DNA from: Natrinema pellirubrum DSM 15624
Lineage (GTDB): Archaea > Halobacteriota > Halobacteria > Halobacteriales > Natrialbaceae
Length of the DNA stretch: 64,000 bases
Assembly: GCF_000230735.2 (NCBI RefSeq)
Contig: NC_019962.1
Span: 3,410,001-3,474,000, forward strand
Direction: 5' to 3'
Each line of letters starts with the position of its first letter. Position 1 is the stretch's first letter. The notes under the pieces were generated by a model that ran no database searches, was not told where the DNA came from, and saw only the letters and a program-made list of their open reading frames with translations. The translations under genes and the position numbers were made by a program. This document shows, in pieces, positions 5,103 through 36,683 of this stretch.

Positions 5103-5176
5103 GGGCCAATAGCTCAATTAGGTTGAGCGCCACTCTGATAAGGTGGAGGCTCTCGGTTCAAATCCGAGTTGGCCCA
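5103..5176 (+). tRNA. tRNA-Ile (GAT)
   Basis: A 74-base cloverleaf folds fully: acceptor GGGCCAA/TTGGCCC, D stem GCTC/GAGC, anticodon stem CCACT/GGTGG with loop CTGATAA (anticodon GAT at 5137-5139), and T stem CTCGG/CCGAG with the TTCAAAT loop. The discriminator base is A at 5176 and CCA is not encoded. There is no intron. It is not part of an rRNA operon here. Confidence 0.97.
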
Positions 5177-31823: not shown

Positions 31824-32621
31824 ATGGACGAATCACTCGAGACAGTCCTAGTGGAGTTCGACGAAGACAGCGGCGTCGGCACGCTGACGATGAACCGGCC
31901 GGACGCGTTGAACGCGCTGAGCGCCCAGCTCAGGGACGATATCGTCGCGGGCCTCGAACTGCTCGAGGAGCAAAACGAGGGTGCCGACGGCGTCGCCTTA
32001 CGTGCCGTGGTCCTCGAGGGGGCCGGCGAGAAGGCCTTCTGTGCCGGCGCGGACATCGGCGGCTTCTCCGACGCGTCGGCCGGCGGCACCTCGGCCCGGA
32101 GCCACTACGATTTCATTCGGGACTTCCCCGCGCCGGTCATCGCGAAGATCGATGGCTACTGTCTGGGCGGCGGCTTAGAGACCGCGCTGGCCTGTGACTT
32201 CCGACTGGCCAGCGAGAGCAGTACGTTCGGCTTCCCCGAAGTGAACCTCGGCATCCTGCCCGGTGCCGGCGGCGTCCAGTACGTCACGAAGATTGCCGGC
32301 CCCGCCCTCGCGAAGGAACTCGCGATGACTGGCGAGCATATTTCCGCGGAACGGGCGGGCGAGGAAGGCATCGTCAACCACGTCTACGCCGACGACGAGT
32401 TCGAGGACGAAGTCGACGCGTTCGTCGACGATCTTGCTGGGCAGGCACCGCTCGCGATCCAGGCGATCAAGAAGTCCGCCGACATGGCGGTTCACAGCGG
32501 GCTCGAGGAAGGGCTGGCCTACGACAACCAGCTCTTTCAGGAACTGCTCAAGACCGAGGACCACGCGGAGGGCGCGGCGGCGTTTGCCGAGGACCGCGAG
32601 CCCGAGTTCGACGGGAAGTAA
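31824..32621 (+). CDS. Enoyl-CoA hydratase (crotonase family)
   Basis: A 265-residue crotonase-fold enzyme. The oxyanion-hole segments AFCAGADIGGF (71-81) and GYCLGGGLETALACDFRLAS (111-130) are intact, and both catalytic glutamates of true hydratases are present: Glu119 (GGGLET) and Glu139 (FGFPEVNLGILPGAGG). It hydrates trans-2-enoyl-CoA such as crotonyl-CoA, the product of glutaryl-CoA or butyryl-CoA dehydrogenase. It is the last gene before the insertion-sequence region. Confidence 0.9.
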   Translation: MDESLETVLVEFDEDSGVGTLTMNRPDALNALSAQLRDDIVAGLELLEEQNEGADGVALRAVVLEGAGEKAFCAGADIGGFSDASAGGTSARSHYDFIRDFPAPVIAKIDGYCLGGGLETALACDFRLASESSTFGFPEVNLGILPGAGGVQYVTKIAGPALAKELAMTGEHISAERAGEEGIVNHVYADDEFEDEVDAFVDDLAGQAPLAIQAIKKSADMAVHSGLEEGLAYDNQLFQELLKTEDHAEGAAAFAEDREPEFDGK

Positions 32622-32756
32622 CGCCTTCGCACCGGTATCATTGGTTTTACGCTACCCGACGAACCGGCCTGCGGTGGCGCGCGCTGTGTCGCGGTGAGTG
32701 ACGAACGAACCGCGACGCAACGCTGTGCGAGGGATGAGCGAAGGAACGGAGTGACT
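32622..32756. other. Short spacer with REP-like palindromic sequence
   Basis: A 7-bp stem (GTCGCGG 32688-32694 with CCGCGAC 32710-32716) is followed by a run of GAGCGAAGGAACGGAGTGA-type palindromic sequence (about 32736-32755). Similar palindromes occur near the tRNA (5254) and beyond the IS cluster (35611). Confidence 0.4.
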
Positions 32757-32919
32757 GAGCGAATCGGTTGGGGAGGACGTGGAATCCCTAGTTGCCACGA
32801 TAGCAGAATGCGCTATCTTGGTCGATGACACTCGTCGTGTGGTGTTTAGAACCACAGGGTAAGCGCTCCTGCTATCGTGGCAACACGGAGGGACCACACC
32901 CTCCCCAGCCGATTCGCTC
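32757..32919. repeat. 163-bp imperfect inverted repeat with long arms
   Basis: The left arm (32757-32806) and right arm (32869-32919) pair over about 50 bases. They include a perfect 16-bp core, GTTGCCACGATAGCAG at 32791-32806 against its complement at 32869-32884, and a matching GGGGAGG...CCTCCCC outer part. The 62-base centre contains a further small hairpin (GTGGT...ACCAC). It carries no open reading frame and abuts the IS630-type element 30 bases to the right. It could be a miniature inverted-repeat element or a strong transcript structure. Confidence 0.6.
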
Positions 32920-32949
32920 GCTATGCTCGCTCATCCACCGGAAGACGCG

Positions 32950-34113
32950 TAGTGATTAGCAAATCTTATTGAGAAATCCACTGAGGTGATTGTCAATCCA
33001 CGATGCAGCGAAACTCAGTTTCTCGGTCAGTTGGTCGAACAGTTCGTCAAGGAGTCTCCGGTATTCGTCTTCGCCGTTAACAATCAACGGCGAAGACTCC
33101 CACTTGAGACTTTTCCAGACAGGTTCGATTGGGTTGAGGTCCGGGGAACCAACCGGCAGGAACACCAGATCAATCCCGAGTTCATGAGCACGCTTGCGCG
33201 TGTGCTTGCAGACGTGTGACGAAAAGTTATCCAACACGAGCAGAATCCGCTTGCCGGGATTCTGCTCGCGGATCTCCTCGAAACACCCACAGATTTGTTC
33301 TTTCTCCTGGTTCGGTGGGAACGACAGCACGCTCTCTCCGTTGAGCGCATAGAACCCGGCCGCTGGTGTATCGATTTTCACCAGCGGCCGAGTGATATGT
33401 GGGTCATCGACCGTGTACAGTCGCTGAGAGTTGTCCCATGGTTGTGGATGCGAGACATCGAAAAATCCCACCACAGTCCCGCCATCAGTACAGATGTCCT
33501 CATCGGTGCGCCACTCCTCTTCGTCGTCATCGTCGTCACTGTCGCGCTTATTGTGTGGCTGGTCGTGAGCATCCTCGTCGAACGCGTACTCGACGCGTTC
33601 GTCGAGGATCTCTTCGGCGTTGTCGGGTCGATCAGGCCGTTTTGTCCGAGGAATGGCGTAGGAAAGGCCGAGATTGTATAGGAACGTTGGGAGGTAGTGT
33701 GGATGATATTCAACATCGAACTCCTTGTCGAGAAGATGCTGGATCTCCTGTTTTTTCCACGGTTGTCCCTCGCGAAGTCGATCGATGAGTTCGTCTTGTT
33801 GGTCTTCGTCGAGCTTCGGGGGCCGACCGCCCCCGAAGTTCGGAGTGAGTTTGCCGAGGCCTCCTTCGTTCCAGCGGTTGACCCAGTTGGTGGCGGTGCC
33901 CTCAGATTTCCCAACGTCATCGGCAGCCTCCTTCAGCGTGGCACCCTTGTACAGCCGTTTGATGAACACGAGGCGTTCGAATTCCTTCTGATCGTCTGCC
34001 TCGCCGAGAAGACGATCCAGATCCTCTTCACTCAGGTGTCGCACAATTTTCTTCTCTCGACCAGTCACTACACTAAAGAGATACTTCTGCTCAATAACTT
34101 TCCCGAATCACTA
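32950..34113 (-). mobile_element. Complete IS630-type insertion sequence
   Basis: The element is 1164 bp counting the TA dinucleotides at both ends (32950-32951 and 34112-34113), as expected for the TA target duplication of IS630 elements. The ends are related inverted repeats: TAGTGATTAGCAAATCTTAT reading in from the left and TAGTGATTCGGGAAAGTTAT reading in from the right. It encodes one intact transposase. It has inserted next to, and apparently into, the coding sequence of a related but distinct IS630-type transposase whose 3' half begins at 34114. Confidence 0.8.
32956..34068 (-). CDS. IS630-family transposase
   Basis: A 370-residue DDE transposase. The N-terminal helix-turn-helix (about residues 30-70, GATLKEAADDVGKSEGTATNW) is followed by GGGRPPKL and a second DNA-binding unit. 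An Asp/Glu-rich insert spans about 160-190. The catalytic triad is visible as Asp204 (GFFDVSHPQP), Asp280 (LLVLDNFSSH) and Glu315 (SPDLNPIEPVWKSLK). The frame is intact, so the element may be active. The acidic insert is typical of haloarchaeal members. Confidence 0.92.
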   Translation of the reverse strand: MTGREKKIVRHLSEEDLDRLLGEADDQKEFERLVFIKRLYKGATLKEAADDVGKSEGTATNWVNRWNEGGLGKLTPNFGGGRPPKLDEDQQDELIDRLREGQPWKKQEIQHLLDKEFDVEYHPHYLPTFLYNLGLSYAIPRTKRPDRPDNAEEILDERVEYAFDEDAHDQPHNKRDSDDDDDEEEWRTDEDICTDGGTVVGFFDVSHPQPWDNSQRLYTVDDPHITRPLVKIDTPAAGFYALNGESVLSFPPNQEKEQICGCFEEIREQNPGKRILLVLDNFSSHVCKHTRKRAHELGIDLVFLPVGSPDLNPIEPVWKSLKWESSPLIVNGEDEYRRLLDELFDQLTEKLSFAASWIDNHLSGFLNKIC

Positions 34114-34734
34114 TACGACGCGCTCGACGAAGATGATCAACCCCACAACAAACGTGAAGGAGATGATGAAGAAGGGTGGATCGTCGACGACGATATCTGT
34201 ACAGATGGAGGCACTGTTCTCGGGTTTTTCGATGCATCACAACCACAACCGTATGACAATTCACGACGTGTCTGGTACGTCGATGATCCACACATTGAGC
34301 GGCCGTTAGTGAAGACAGAAGACTCGGCGGTTGGGTTCTACGCAGTGAACGGCACCAGTGTGGTCCAGTGGAAAGAAACCGAGGAGAAAGAGCGGATTTG
34401 CGAGGTGTTAGAGGCGGTACGCGAGCAGAATCCCGGCAAGCGGATTCTGCTCGTCTTGGACAAGCACGGCTCCCACATCTGTGAATACACGCGCAAGCGT
34501 GCGCACCAACTTGGCATCGATCTCGTGTTCCTTCCCTCAGGATCACCGCATCTCAACCCAATCGAACAGGTTTGGAAATACCTCAAGTGGACGATGGCAC
34601 CGATCATCGTTGAGAACGAAGACGAGTTCCACGAACTCGTCAAGGACGTATTTGATCAAGTGACACAACGAGTCAGTTTCGCAAAGAGCTGGTGTGAGAA
34701 GTTTCTTGATTTTCAAAAGTTTCCTTGATCATTA
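34114..34734 (+). pseudogene. 3' half of a second IS630-type transposase
   Basis: An open frame in the plus direction aligns with the intact transposase from about residue 161 to the end and keeps the three catalytic positions: GFFDASQPQP, LLVLDKHGSH and SPHLNPIEQVWKYLK. The stop codon is at 34726-34728. A terminal sequence related to the IS end (reading inward from the right: TAATGATCAAGGAAACTTTT) finishes at 34734. Residues 1-160 are missing: the frame starts exactly at the TA end of the neighbouring intact element and no matching 5' half lies on its other side. It is therefore a dead fragment, divergent enough to be a different IS species. Confidence 0.8.
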
Positions 34735-35112
34735 CGACCCCGGCGATCCGTCAAGCCCGGAAAGCACGATTAGTGGCTGTTCGTCCTGCTCTTCCCTGAG
34801 AGCTACGATTTTACCTTGGCCGCTCCGCTAAACAGATACAACGACGGCTTCGAGTTCAGCAGCAGGAACGGTATGAAGCTGAGCGAGTGTGTAGTCGTCG
34901 GAGTACGTTCCGAGAGTGCTGTCAGTGACAGCCTTGATGGATTTCTGATCGACAGCGGCTTGGAGGAGTGTCTGCCGGATGATCCCGGAGTCGAAGCCAC
35001 AGCCTTCGACTCCAGGGATCGGGACCTCAGAGAGGAGATCAAGCGCTAAGGTTTCAAGGTCAGAGGCCGTAAGAACGGTGTCTGGATGGTATAGGAATTG
35101 CACAACACCCAT
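34735..35112 (-). pseudogene. Decayed transposase-like remnant
   Basis: A minus-strand frame starts at an ATG at 35112 and gives 94 residues (LYHPDTVLTASDLETLALDL at the start, VTDSTLGTYSDDYTLAQLH later) before a stop at 34828. A second short open stretch in another frame (34736-34831, GQGKIVALREEQDEQP) resembles a C-terminal tail. The picture fits an internally deleted transposase gene of a non-IS630 haloarchaeal family that I cannot name with certainty. It lies between two IS630 fragments. Confidence 0.45.
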
Positions 35113-35176
35113 CTAGACGCTTTCTGAGAATCTAACCTCATCAGTCGTAACTAACTGCTGACTCGATGGGAACTAC

Positions 35177-35596
35177 CGAGTGTGGATGATATTCGACATC
35201 GAACTCCTCGTCGAGAAGATGCTGAATCTCCTGTTTTTTCCACGGTTGTCCCTCACGTAGTCGATCGATGAGTTCGTCTTGTCGGTCTTCGTCGAGCTTC
35301 GGGGGCCGACCGCCCCCGAAGTTCGGAGTGAGTTTGCCGAGACCCCCTTCGTTCCAGCGGTTGACCCAGTTGGTGGCGGTGCCCTCAGATTTCCCAACGT
35401 CATCGGCAGCCTCCTTCAGCGTGGCACCCTTATACAGCCGTTTGATGAACACGAGGCGTTCGAATTCCTTCTGACCGTCTGCCTCGCCGAGCAGACGATC
35501 CAGATCCTCTTCACACAGGTGTCGCACAATTTTCTTCTCTCGGCCAGTCACTACACTAAAGAGATACTTCTGCTCAATAACTTTCCCGAATCACTA
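35177..35596 (-). pseudogene. 5' fragment of a second copy of the intact IS630 element
   Basis: This segment is nearly identical to the right-hand 420 bases of the element at 32950-34113, including the terminal repeat and TA at 35595-35596. The transposase frame starts at 35551 and matches the intact protein for about 124 residues, then diverges at the break and stops at 35141. The few substitutions (for example Ser to Cys at residue 13) indicate a recent common origin. It and the intact copy are direct repeats that could recombine. Confidence 0.8.
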
Positions 35597-35765
35597 AGCG
35601 TCTTCCGAGCCGTTCGCTCACTCCGTTCGCGAAGACCTCGCGAAGACCTCGCGCAGTATCGAACCGCAGTTCGCTTATCGCTCACTGCGGTTCAGCGCAC
35701 GCCACCGCATACCGATTCAGCAGTCAAAAACTGAAGCGAATCTGCACCAGTTTGCGAAACCGACC
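35597..35765. other. Spacer with REP-like palindromes
   Basis: Contains GTTCGCTCACTCCGTTCGC (about 35612-35630), a tandem repeat of CGCGAAGACCT (about 35630-35650) and another palindrome-like CAGTTCGCTTATCGCTCACTG. No gene is seen. Confidence 0.4.
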
Positions 35766-36503
35766 TCAGTCCCACTCCTCACCGATGCCGGTCAGCGAGA
35801 ACGGGCCGACGGGGAGGTTGTAGCCGTCCTCGAGCGCCTTGTCGACCTGTTCCTCCGTAGCAATCCCCTCGTCGACGATCTTCTTTGCCTCCTCGCGCAT
35901 CGCCGCGTGACAGCGGTTGGCGAGGAAGCCGTAGGAGCCGGGATCGTCGTCGATGGTAACCCGTGTCTTCCCGAGTTCGTCGACCAGTTCCTCGGCGCGC
36001 TCGACGACGGCTTCGTCAGTCTCCGGTGCCTGGACGATTTCGACCATGTCCATGACCGCGACGGGGTTGAAAAAGTGCGTCACCGCGACCCGAGAGGGGT
36101 CGGAGACGGCGTTGGCGATCGACGTGACGGCGAACCCGCTCGTGTTCGAGTACAGCGGCTGATCGTCCGTGACCTCGTCCAGATCGCGGAAGACCTGCCC
36201 CTTGATCGCCAGGTCTTCGGTAACCGCCTCGATCGTGAAGTCGGTCCCGTCGGTTGCCGCGTCGAGATCCGTCGTGAACGTCATCCGCTCGAGGACCGCG
36301 TCTTTCTCGTCCTCGGAGAGATAACCGCCCTCGACGGCGTCCTCGAGCCCGTAATTGCCCGAGATCACGCGCTCTCGAGCCTCGTCGGCCAACTCCTCGT
36401 TGATCTCGCGGACGGCCACGTCGTAGCCGTTCCGTGCGAGTACCTGTGCGATACCGGCGCCCATGATGCCGCCACCGACGACGGCAGCACTCTTTTGTGC
36501 CAT
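35766..36503 (-). CDS. 3-hydroxyacyl-CoA dehydrogenase, short C-terminal domain
   Basis: A 245-residue protein with a GGGIMGAGIAQ Rossmann motif at residues 10-20 and the catalytic pair His143 (VTHFFNP) and Glu155 (MDMVEIV), so the NAD-binding domain is complete. The C-terminal domain stops soon after GYNLPVGPFSLTGIGEEWD, about 45 residues earlier than in the 293-residue paralogue at 23547-24428. This may be the natural length of a haloarchaeal subfamily or a truncation, since the insertion-sequence cluster ends 170 bases downstream of its stop. The ATG at 36503 gives the normal start. Confidence 0.8.
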   Translation of the reverse strand: MAQKSAAVVGGGIMGAGIAQVLARNGYDVAVREINEELADEARERVISGNYGLEDAVEGGYLSEDEKDAVLERMTFTTDLDAATDGTDFTIEAVTEDLAIKGQVFRDLDEVTDDQPLYSNTSGFAVTSIANAVSDPSRVAVTHFFNPVAVMDMVEIVQAPETDEAVVERAEELVDELGKTRVTIDDDPGSYGFLANRCHAAMREEAKKIVDEGIATEEQVDKALEDGYNLPVGPFSLTGIGEEWD

Positions 36504-36683
36504 GGCACCAACCTTCATGGGAACCGACTTAGTTCTTATCAACGTGCGTGGAGGCCGGTGTCGGTCGCCGGCCCGAGCCGCTCACCGACCCGCCGCCGGA
36601 GCCGCGAACGCGACGCGCCGCTGCGAGGCGGACGCGGTCCCGACACCACCGACCGACGTTCAGCTGGTGTCAACGTCCAGAAG

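Follow-up and report, generated by a model that had tools for sequence, protein, structure and literature searches.

The window, i.e. the whole stretch of 64,000 nucleotides from Natrinema pellirubrum DSM 15624 that was analysed, carries a long palindrome at 32757-32919 in the region separating two convergent genes, which by Pfam match encode an enoyl-CoA hydratase and a 3-hydroxyacyl-CoA dehydrogenase. In a preliminary description, this feature had been presented as an inverted repeat with a perfect 16-nt core and a 62-nt centre, lacking coding capacity and differing from the ends of the nearby IS630 element. The repeat is indeed real, as an inverted-repeat search of the window yields outer arms of 26 nt (32757-32782/32894-32919) with 88% complementarity as well as inner arms of 16 nt (32791-32806/32869-32884) with 100% complementarity, 62 nt separating the latter two. 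The folding energy of region 32740-32940 is -117.5 kcal/mol, compared to a mean of -66.8 kcal/mol for 200 dinucleotide shuffles (z -11.6). Since none of the shuffles equals this value, the palindrome is not due to chance; on the other strand, the palindrome region folds with z -10.0. None of the genes predicted by a codon-score gene finder overlaps it, which agrees with the stated lack of coding capacity. The palindrome arms correspond to the innermost ~50 nt of each of two longer, inverted units, being head-to-head copies of an intergenic unit of ~139 nt, of which the right-hand one resumes 2.7 kb off, past an IS cluster. The features of the locus are as follows:

31824-32621, plus strand: flanking gene, enoyl-CoA hydratase (Pfam PF00378), which stops 47 bp upstream of unit 1
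32669-32806, plus strand: unit 1, full length (covariance model match with 150.3 bits, E 4e-33; alignment A1, see below), running from the closing stem through the variable hairpin P2, the conserved block GCGAGGGATGAGCGA, hairpin P3, which contains tandem G-A mismatches, and block GAATCGGYTGGGGAGG to the 3' block TTGCCACGATAGCAG
32757-32919, no strand: palindrome of the preliminary description, comprising the spacer and the inner portions of both units
32807-32868, no strand: spacer of 62 nt separating the 3' ends of units 1 and 2
32869-32951, minus strand: 3' half of unit 2, forming the right arm of the palindrome, as far as the TA of the IS cluster insertion
32952-35594, no strand: IS630 cluster (Pfam DDE_3 and HTH matches; ends and flanks), whose insertion point is a TA within the loop formed by the GGAAGACGC/GCGTCTTCC hairpin cassette in unit 2
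32956-34044, minus strand: transposase of the IS630 cluster
34132-34728, plus strand: fragment in the IS630 cluster
35141-35551, minus strand: fragment in the IS630 cluster
35595-35710, minus strand: unit 2, 5' half, past the IS cluster
35766-36518, minus strand: flanking convergent gene, 3-hydroxyacyl-CoA dehydrogenase (Pfam PF02737)

Similar ends are present at three positions of the IS630 cluster (32952, 34100-34111 and 35583-35594), which suggests two copies, one of them broken. The IS ends are flanked by TA, as is expected for the IS630 family. These ends (TA-GTGATT...) are absent from the palindrome arms, bearing out the earlier remark that the two differ. At the matching site of Natrinema mahii (L037), the halves of unit 2 are contiguous, and both the IS cluster and the GGAAGACGC/GCGTCTTCC cassette are absent; the same cassette is found in another unit of the own genome (L121). 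Elsewhere in the window, a tRNA gene is located at 5103-5176.

The repeat unit: fold and distribution

Reading of the copies gives a self-contained unit of ~139 nt, in which TGCGGTGGCGCGCGCTG is followed by a hairpin whose sequence varies, then by GCGCGAGGGATGAGCGA, another hairpin, GAGCGAATCGGYTGGGGAGG... and finally TTGCCACGATAGCAG. For alignment, 43 units of 117-145 nt were gathered, 35 of which were aligned by sequence using MAFFT (alignment A1); the eight units left out resulted from thinning of near-duplicates and dropping of truncated ones. RNAalifold applied to A1 returned 31 pairs, 16 of them with both sides changed, and addition of three outer pairs by hand gave a structure of 34 pairs. 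With this structure, 95.8% of the cells of A1 pair (83.9% after shuffling), 16 of the 34 pairs display changes on both sides, and covariation amounts to 0.401, compared to 0.185 for shuffled and at most 0.132 for slid alignments. Alignment A2, comprising 113 units from several families, was fitted to the covariance model, unlike the sequence-based A1; here, 22 of 31 pairs are changed on both sides at a covariation of 0.458 vs 0.187. Compensatory base pairs exceed the control in both alignments. As judged from these data, one strand of the unit maintains a conserved branched fold composed of a closing stem, a freely varying hairpin, a hairpin with tandem G-A mismatches and a short 3' helix. In the first hairpin, nearly every pair varies with pairing preserved, and the second one contains two tandem G-A/A-G mismatches, found in 34 and 33 of the 35 units in A1, respectively. 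G-U pairs outnumber A-C mismatches by 104 to 15 in A1 and by 399 to 22 in A2. As a G-U pair would read A-C on the complementary strand, the sense strand of the unit is therefore the folding one, a pattern that fits RNA and single-stranded DNA equally. Five single units folded alone reach z values of only -1.5 to -3.6 vs shuffles; hence, it is covariation that carries the argument for the fold. Part of this covariation, in turn, stems from block exchange, given that whole hairpins are exchanged between copies (see below), and such exchange could yield part of it without structural selection at each site. Of the two proposals made in the preliminary description, a structured RNA is thus supported as far as a covarying secondary structure carried by one strand is concerned.

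A first search with 251 bp of the locus against 61 genomes gave matches in 37 of them, mostly to one arm and its upstream sequence; in the own genome, 74 matches were counted, many of which correspond to a single ~50-nt arm. The further searches of the own genome, the genus, the order and the phylum share one covariance model of the unit, R1, built from units of the Natrinema group. It yields 45 matches in the own genome (E<=0.01), all on the chromosome (C1, the largest contig). These include a few split or overlapping pieces, so that the working set comprised 40 units, merged stretches included, distributed over 34 sites; 27 of these sites hold one unit and not a pair. Inverted pairs of the own genome are located at 449, 470, 487, 597, 1413, 2709 and 3442 kb, and all seven face each other 3' to 3'. 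Pairs with facing 5' ends were seen in other genera (L346 and L353 in G071, L255 in G226). Of 29 genomes of the genus, 25 contain matches (E<=1e-6), and the number per genome ranges from 0 to 88. Across the order, R1 matches at least 126 of 293 genomes and at least 41 of 81 genera, match counts being lower bounds as 11 candidates per genome were scored. Seven chosen genomes from six families contain 13-43 matches each, and 29 copies taken from them exhibit, by eye, the same conserved blocks. In a 196-genome sample of the phylum, no match fell outside the own order (nine genomes match, all belonging to it). No phage record matches the unit, and 3 of 72,556 plasmid records do. One plasmid record of 987 kb, CP031304.1 from Natrinema thermotolerans, carries the unit at five places, as opposed to the own matches on the largest contig alone.

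The further copies sought in the genome and its relatives are hence abundant, and a single copy without variation in relatives, which would have spoken against an element of this kind, is contradicted by the many copies and by strong variation at the window site itself. That the palindrome belongs to a dispersed structured repeat family is virtually certain. The second proposal of the preliminary description, a miniature inverted-repeat element, stands with regard to the multi-copy, dispersed nature of the sequence. The arms, however, are not the terminal inverted repeats (TIRs) of one such element, and the unit is mostly single; a MITE with 50-nt arms as TIRs was rejected because single-arm copies are commoner and hold the whole fold.

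Site history and traces of mobility

The window site was searched in 29 genomes of the genus and the intergenic regions were read. Both units are present in 14 genomes, including the interrupted case of the window itself. One genome (G016) retains the pair minus its deleted inner halves, one (G013) the outer ends alone, and two (G001, G022) the left unit alone. In two genomes (G009, G014), both units are lost with (C)CACCGCA and the outer flanks retained, and two more (G018, G024) have no trace of units. The intergenic region was unreadable in G003 and G002, and five genomes (G012, G017, G020, G023, G025) gave no match at threshold. According to these unit states, the presence of the palindrome here dates back to an ancestor of a large part of the genus, and it has eroded since. 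Breakpoints of the erosion often lie at a hairpin base. Several candidates for virgin empty sites were rejected: G009 and G014 are deletions in view of the retained (C)CACCGCA and outer flanks, L169 compared to G005 is likewise a deletion, and L219 compared to G005 still contains a unit remnant.

For 33 of the 40 own units, flank matches are found at a unit locus in N. mahii (G004), which argues for little recent movement; the family is probably now mostly inherited vertically in the own lineage. Six of 23 aligned unit pairs from the two genomes are 98-100% identical across nearly the whole unit. At own positions 203957, 444193, 525244 and 835592, one whole hairpin is swapped for a different family hairpin with the joints retained, and at 1088591, 2371164, 2709159 and 2821016, long nested hairpin cassettes have been gained or lost. 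The two arms at 2709 kb have traded their first hairpins relative to N. mahii. Such swaps are best explained by recombination or gene conversion, presumably at the conserved joints. Nested cassettes gained or lost within unit hairpins (e.g. GCGGGACC.GGTCCCGC and GGAAGACGC.GCGTCTTCC) were also seen at L064, L121, L188 and L203, and these cassettes may be repeat families in their own right.

In the high-copy genomes G008, G019 and G022, the unit carries conserved extensions of ~45-46 nt before and ~60-67 nt after it, weak versions of which are visible in the window lineage. The ends of these extensions are roughly complementary; the core unit itself has no terminal inverted repeats. Their outer 18-mer occurs at 35 places, compared to 0 for the reversed control. 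Among 30 such loci read, 19 are without the unit core by pattern, and one more turned out by eye to be a unit plus cassette. In the loci L368-L396 of these genomes, a second dispersed motif, ...ACACGTAGTTGCCGTTCAGTACAGGTGAAG, was noticed without the unit at ~19 of the 30 loci, on chromosomes as well as smaller contigs, with 35 hits overall compared to 0 for the reversed control. By eye, translated open reading frames beside the outer 18-mer resemble diverse unrelated proteins, with no transposase- or TnpB-like one recognized among them. When the joined flanks of 14 G022 copies were compared to six genomes, contiguous (empty) matches were obtained for five (L301, L306, L307, L308, L316). In these and in L177, flanks are contiguous, with occupied and empty junctions too diverged for a target duplication to be read.

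Judging by such comparisons, the family was probably mobile in the past, dispersing as non-autonomous DNA. It might even be nothing else, namely a purely selfish miniature mobile DNA without host function; a transposase acting in trans (HUH/IS200-IS605-like or other) would then recognize the hairpins of one strand as single-stranded DNA. The patchy copy number of 0-88 within one genus, units that are variously present, absent or truncated at orthologous sites, the extensions with their complementary ends and recurrent outer 18-mer, and a strand-specific fold with tandem G-A mismatches that single-stranded DNA can form, too, are all in keeping with this. Yet the translated neighbours of the outer 18-mer did not, by eye, resemble transposases and none is linked to the unit, no target duplication was read, and the shared N. 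mahii loci indicate little recent movement. We therefore regard a purely selfish element as somewhat unlikely.

Placement relative to genes and putative role

Gene context was assessed for 126 units (40 own ones, 58 from G008, G019 and G022, and 28 from seven other genomes) by means of a codon-score gene finder that had been trained on the window. All 126 lie outside predicted genes at a tolerance of 30 bp, most of them behind gene ends; 52 are located between convergent genes, 33 are codirectional-sense, 22 codirectional-antisense and 19 divergent. Because convergent and divergent regions are about equally numerous in any circular genome, the ratio of 52:19 represents an excess (p 1e-4; 52:17 without the second members of six own pairs), although this and the following p-values are optimistic since units come from related genomes. 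Counted by site with second pair members removed, codirectional sense and antisense units amount to 33:18 (p 0.049). At convergent sites, the gene on the unit strand is the nearer one in 41 of 52 cases (p 4e-5) and in 38 of 52 with the 46- and 67-nt extensions allowed for, but in 29 of 52 (p 0.49) if the element is lengthened by 45 nt or more at the 3' side only. The orientation preference of the unit is thus moderate. A strict strand-specific 3'-UTR element was not upheld as a rule, as the codirectional units comprise 33 in sense and 22 in antisense orientation.

Ordinary intrinsic terminators of convergent genes would account for a stable hairpin positioned between convergent stops. They are extremely improbable, however, with a conserved, branched fold of ~139 nt and invariant unpaired blocks common to genomes of several families, and with 41 of the 126 units (22 codirectional-antisense plus 19 divergent) lying behind a gene of the other strand. 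Only slightly better placed is the assumption that each unit is an independent non-coding RNA gene with its own promoter. Such genes would be expected to show a compact fold that covaries and contains invariant unpaired blocks; upstream of 98 units, however, neither a conserved AT-rich promoter box nor a TATA-like signal was found, and placement tied to gene ends together with copy numbers of 0-88 makes this highly doubtful. A DNA-level role in the nucleoid, in topoisomerase action or in replication termination has been proposed for some bacterial REP/BIME repeats. A corresponding cruciform or protein-binding palindrome would suit the long, perfect-core palindromes in inverted pairs and the enrichment between convergent genes, where supercoils meet. 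The presence of a single unit at most own sites and a strand-specific mismatch pattern, for which a double-stranded binding site has no need, render it improbable.

The interpretation we favour, and consider reasonably probable, is that the palindrome consists of two inverted copies of a dispersed, once mobile haloarchaeal structured repeat whose sense strand is putatively a folded 3'-end RNA; the 3'-end RNA role of the unit, taken by itself, is put forward tentatively. The unit would have spread as non-autonomous mobile DNA after the manner of bacterial REP/REPIN repeats. Where it lies sense-wise behind a gene, it would be transcribed within the 3' untranslated RNA and fold, and the folded unit might mark or shield the 3' end of the mRNA. 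Where genes converge, as at the window site, two facing units could serve both transcripts, and two units facing each other there make up the long palindrome. Paired units at convergent ends fit either two facing 3' elements or a REPIN-like doublet. A bolder extension, which we deem rather unlikely, is a haloarchaea-wide mobile structured RNA or ssDNA element with a modular ~139-nt fold, i.e. a 3'-end RNA module spreading between gene ends, in which conserved joints would hold interchangeable hairpin cassettes exchanged by recombination at the joints. If true, archaea would possess their own equivalent of REPINs, endowed with an RNA function. With model R1, the family is also a practical annotation target and may account for many intergenic palindromes in haloarchaeal genomes.

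Comparison with known repeat and RNA systems

The unit shares a covarying secondary structure with the structured RNAs of Rfam, but no family of Rfam 15 reaches its gathering score for the window locus or the unit; below threshold, the unit hits microRNA hairpin models and a single UTR model. Like MITEs, it is non-coding, dispersed and small, whereas the palindrome arms are internal parts of two units and not the inverted terminal repeats (ITRs) of one element. In the accessible, mostly open-access part of the literature, no description of the unit was found, and the archaeal strain-table rows of RepRanger that were examined include no haloarchaeon (PMC12306157).

Among haloarchaeal repeats, the PATEs, MITEs and SMRs of Haloquadratum are the closest described ones, although membership is not claimed. 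According to the portions of the report considered, they are dispersed and transposase-free, and other elements insert in their palindromes (PMC3119063), just as the IS630 cluster did here. PATEs are described as having near-terminal palindromes of IS605 type, and SMRs as having ITRs and targeting PATEs. A covarying internal RNA-like fold is not described for any of them in these portions (PMC3119063), the unit having been compared at the level of descriptions.

Most work on extragenic hairpin repeats concerns bacteria. A family whose conserved, covarying fold occurs in roughly half of the sampled haloarchaeal genera would offer a large natural archaeal test set, with which mRNA 3'-end definition and decay, repeat spread and hairpin exchange could be addressed. 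In behaviour, the closest system is that of the bacterial REPINs, again without a claim to membership. As far as the account consulted in part goes, these are short extragenic hairpin units in many copies, found either alone or in inverted doublets whose members are a short spacer apart; REP doublets fold as long hairpins and are patchy across genomes (PMC3116915). RAYT transposase belongs to the REP/REPIN system, and none of the present evidence ties the unit to one. In contrast to the one short palindrome of REP, BIME and REPIN elements, as described there, the unit is ~139 nt long and branched, contains invariant unpaired blocks and resides in haloarchaeal hosts; like them, it is multi-copy, extragenic, patchy and partly arranged in inverted doublets with a short spacer.
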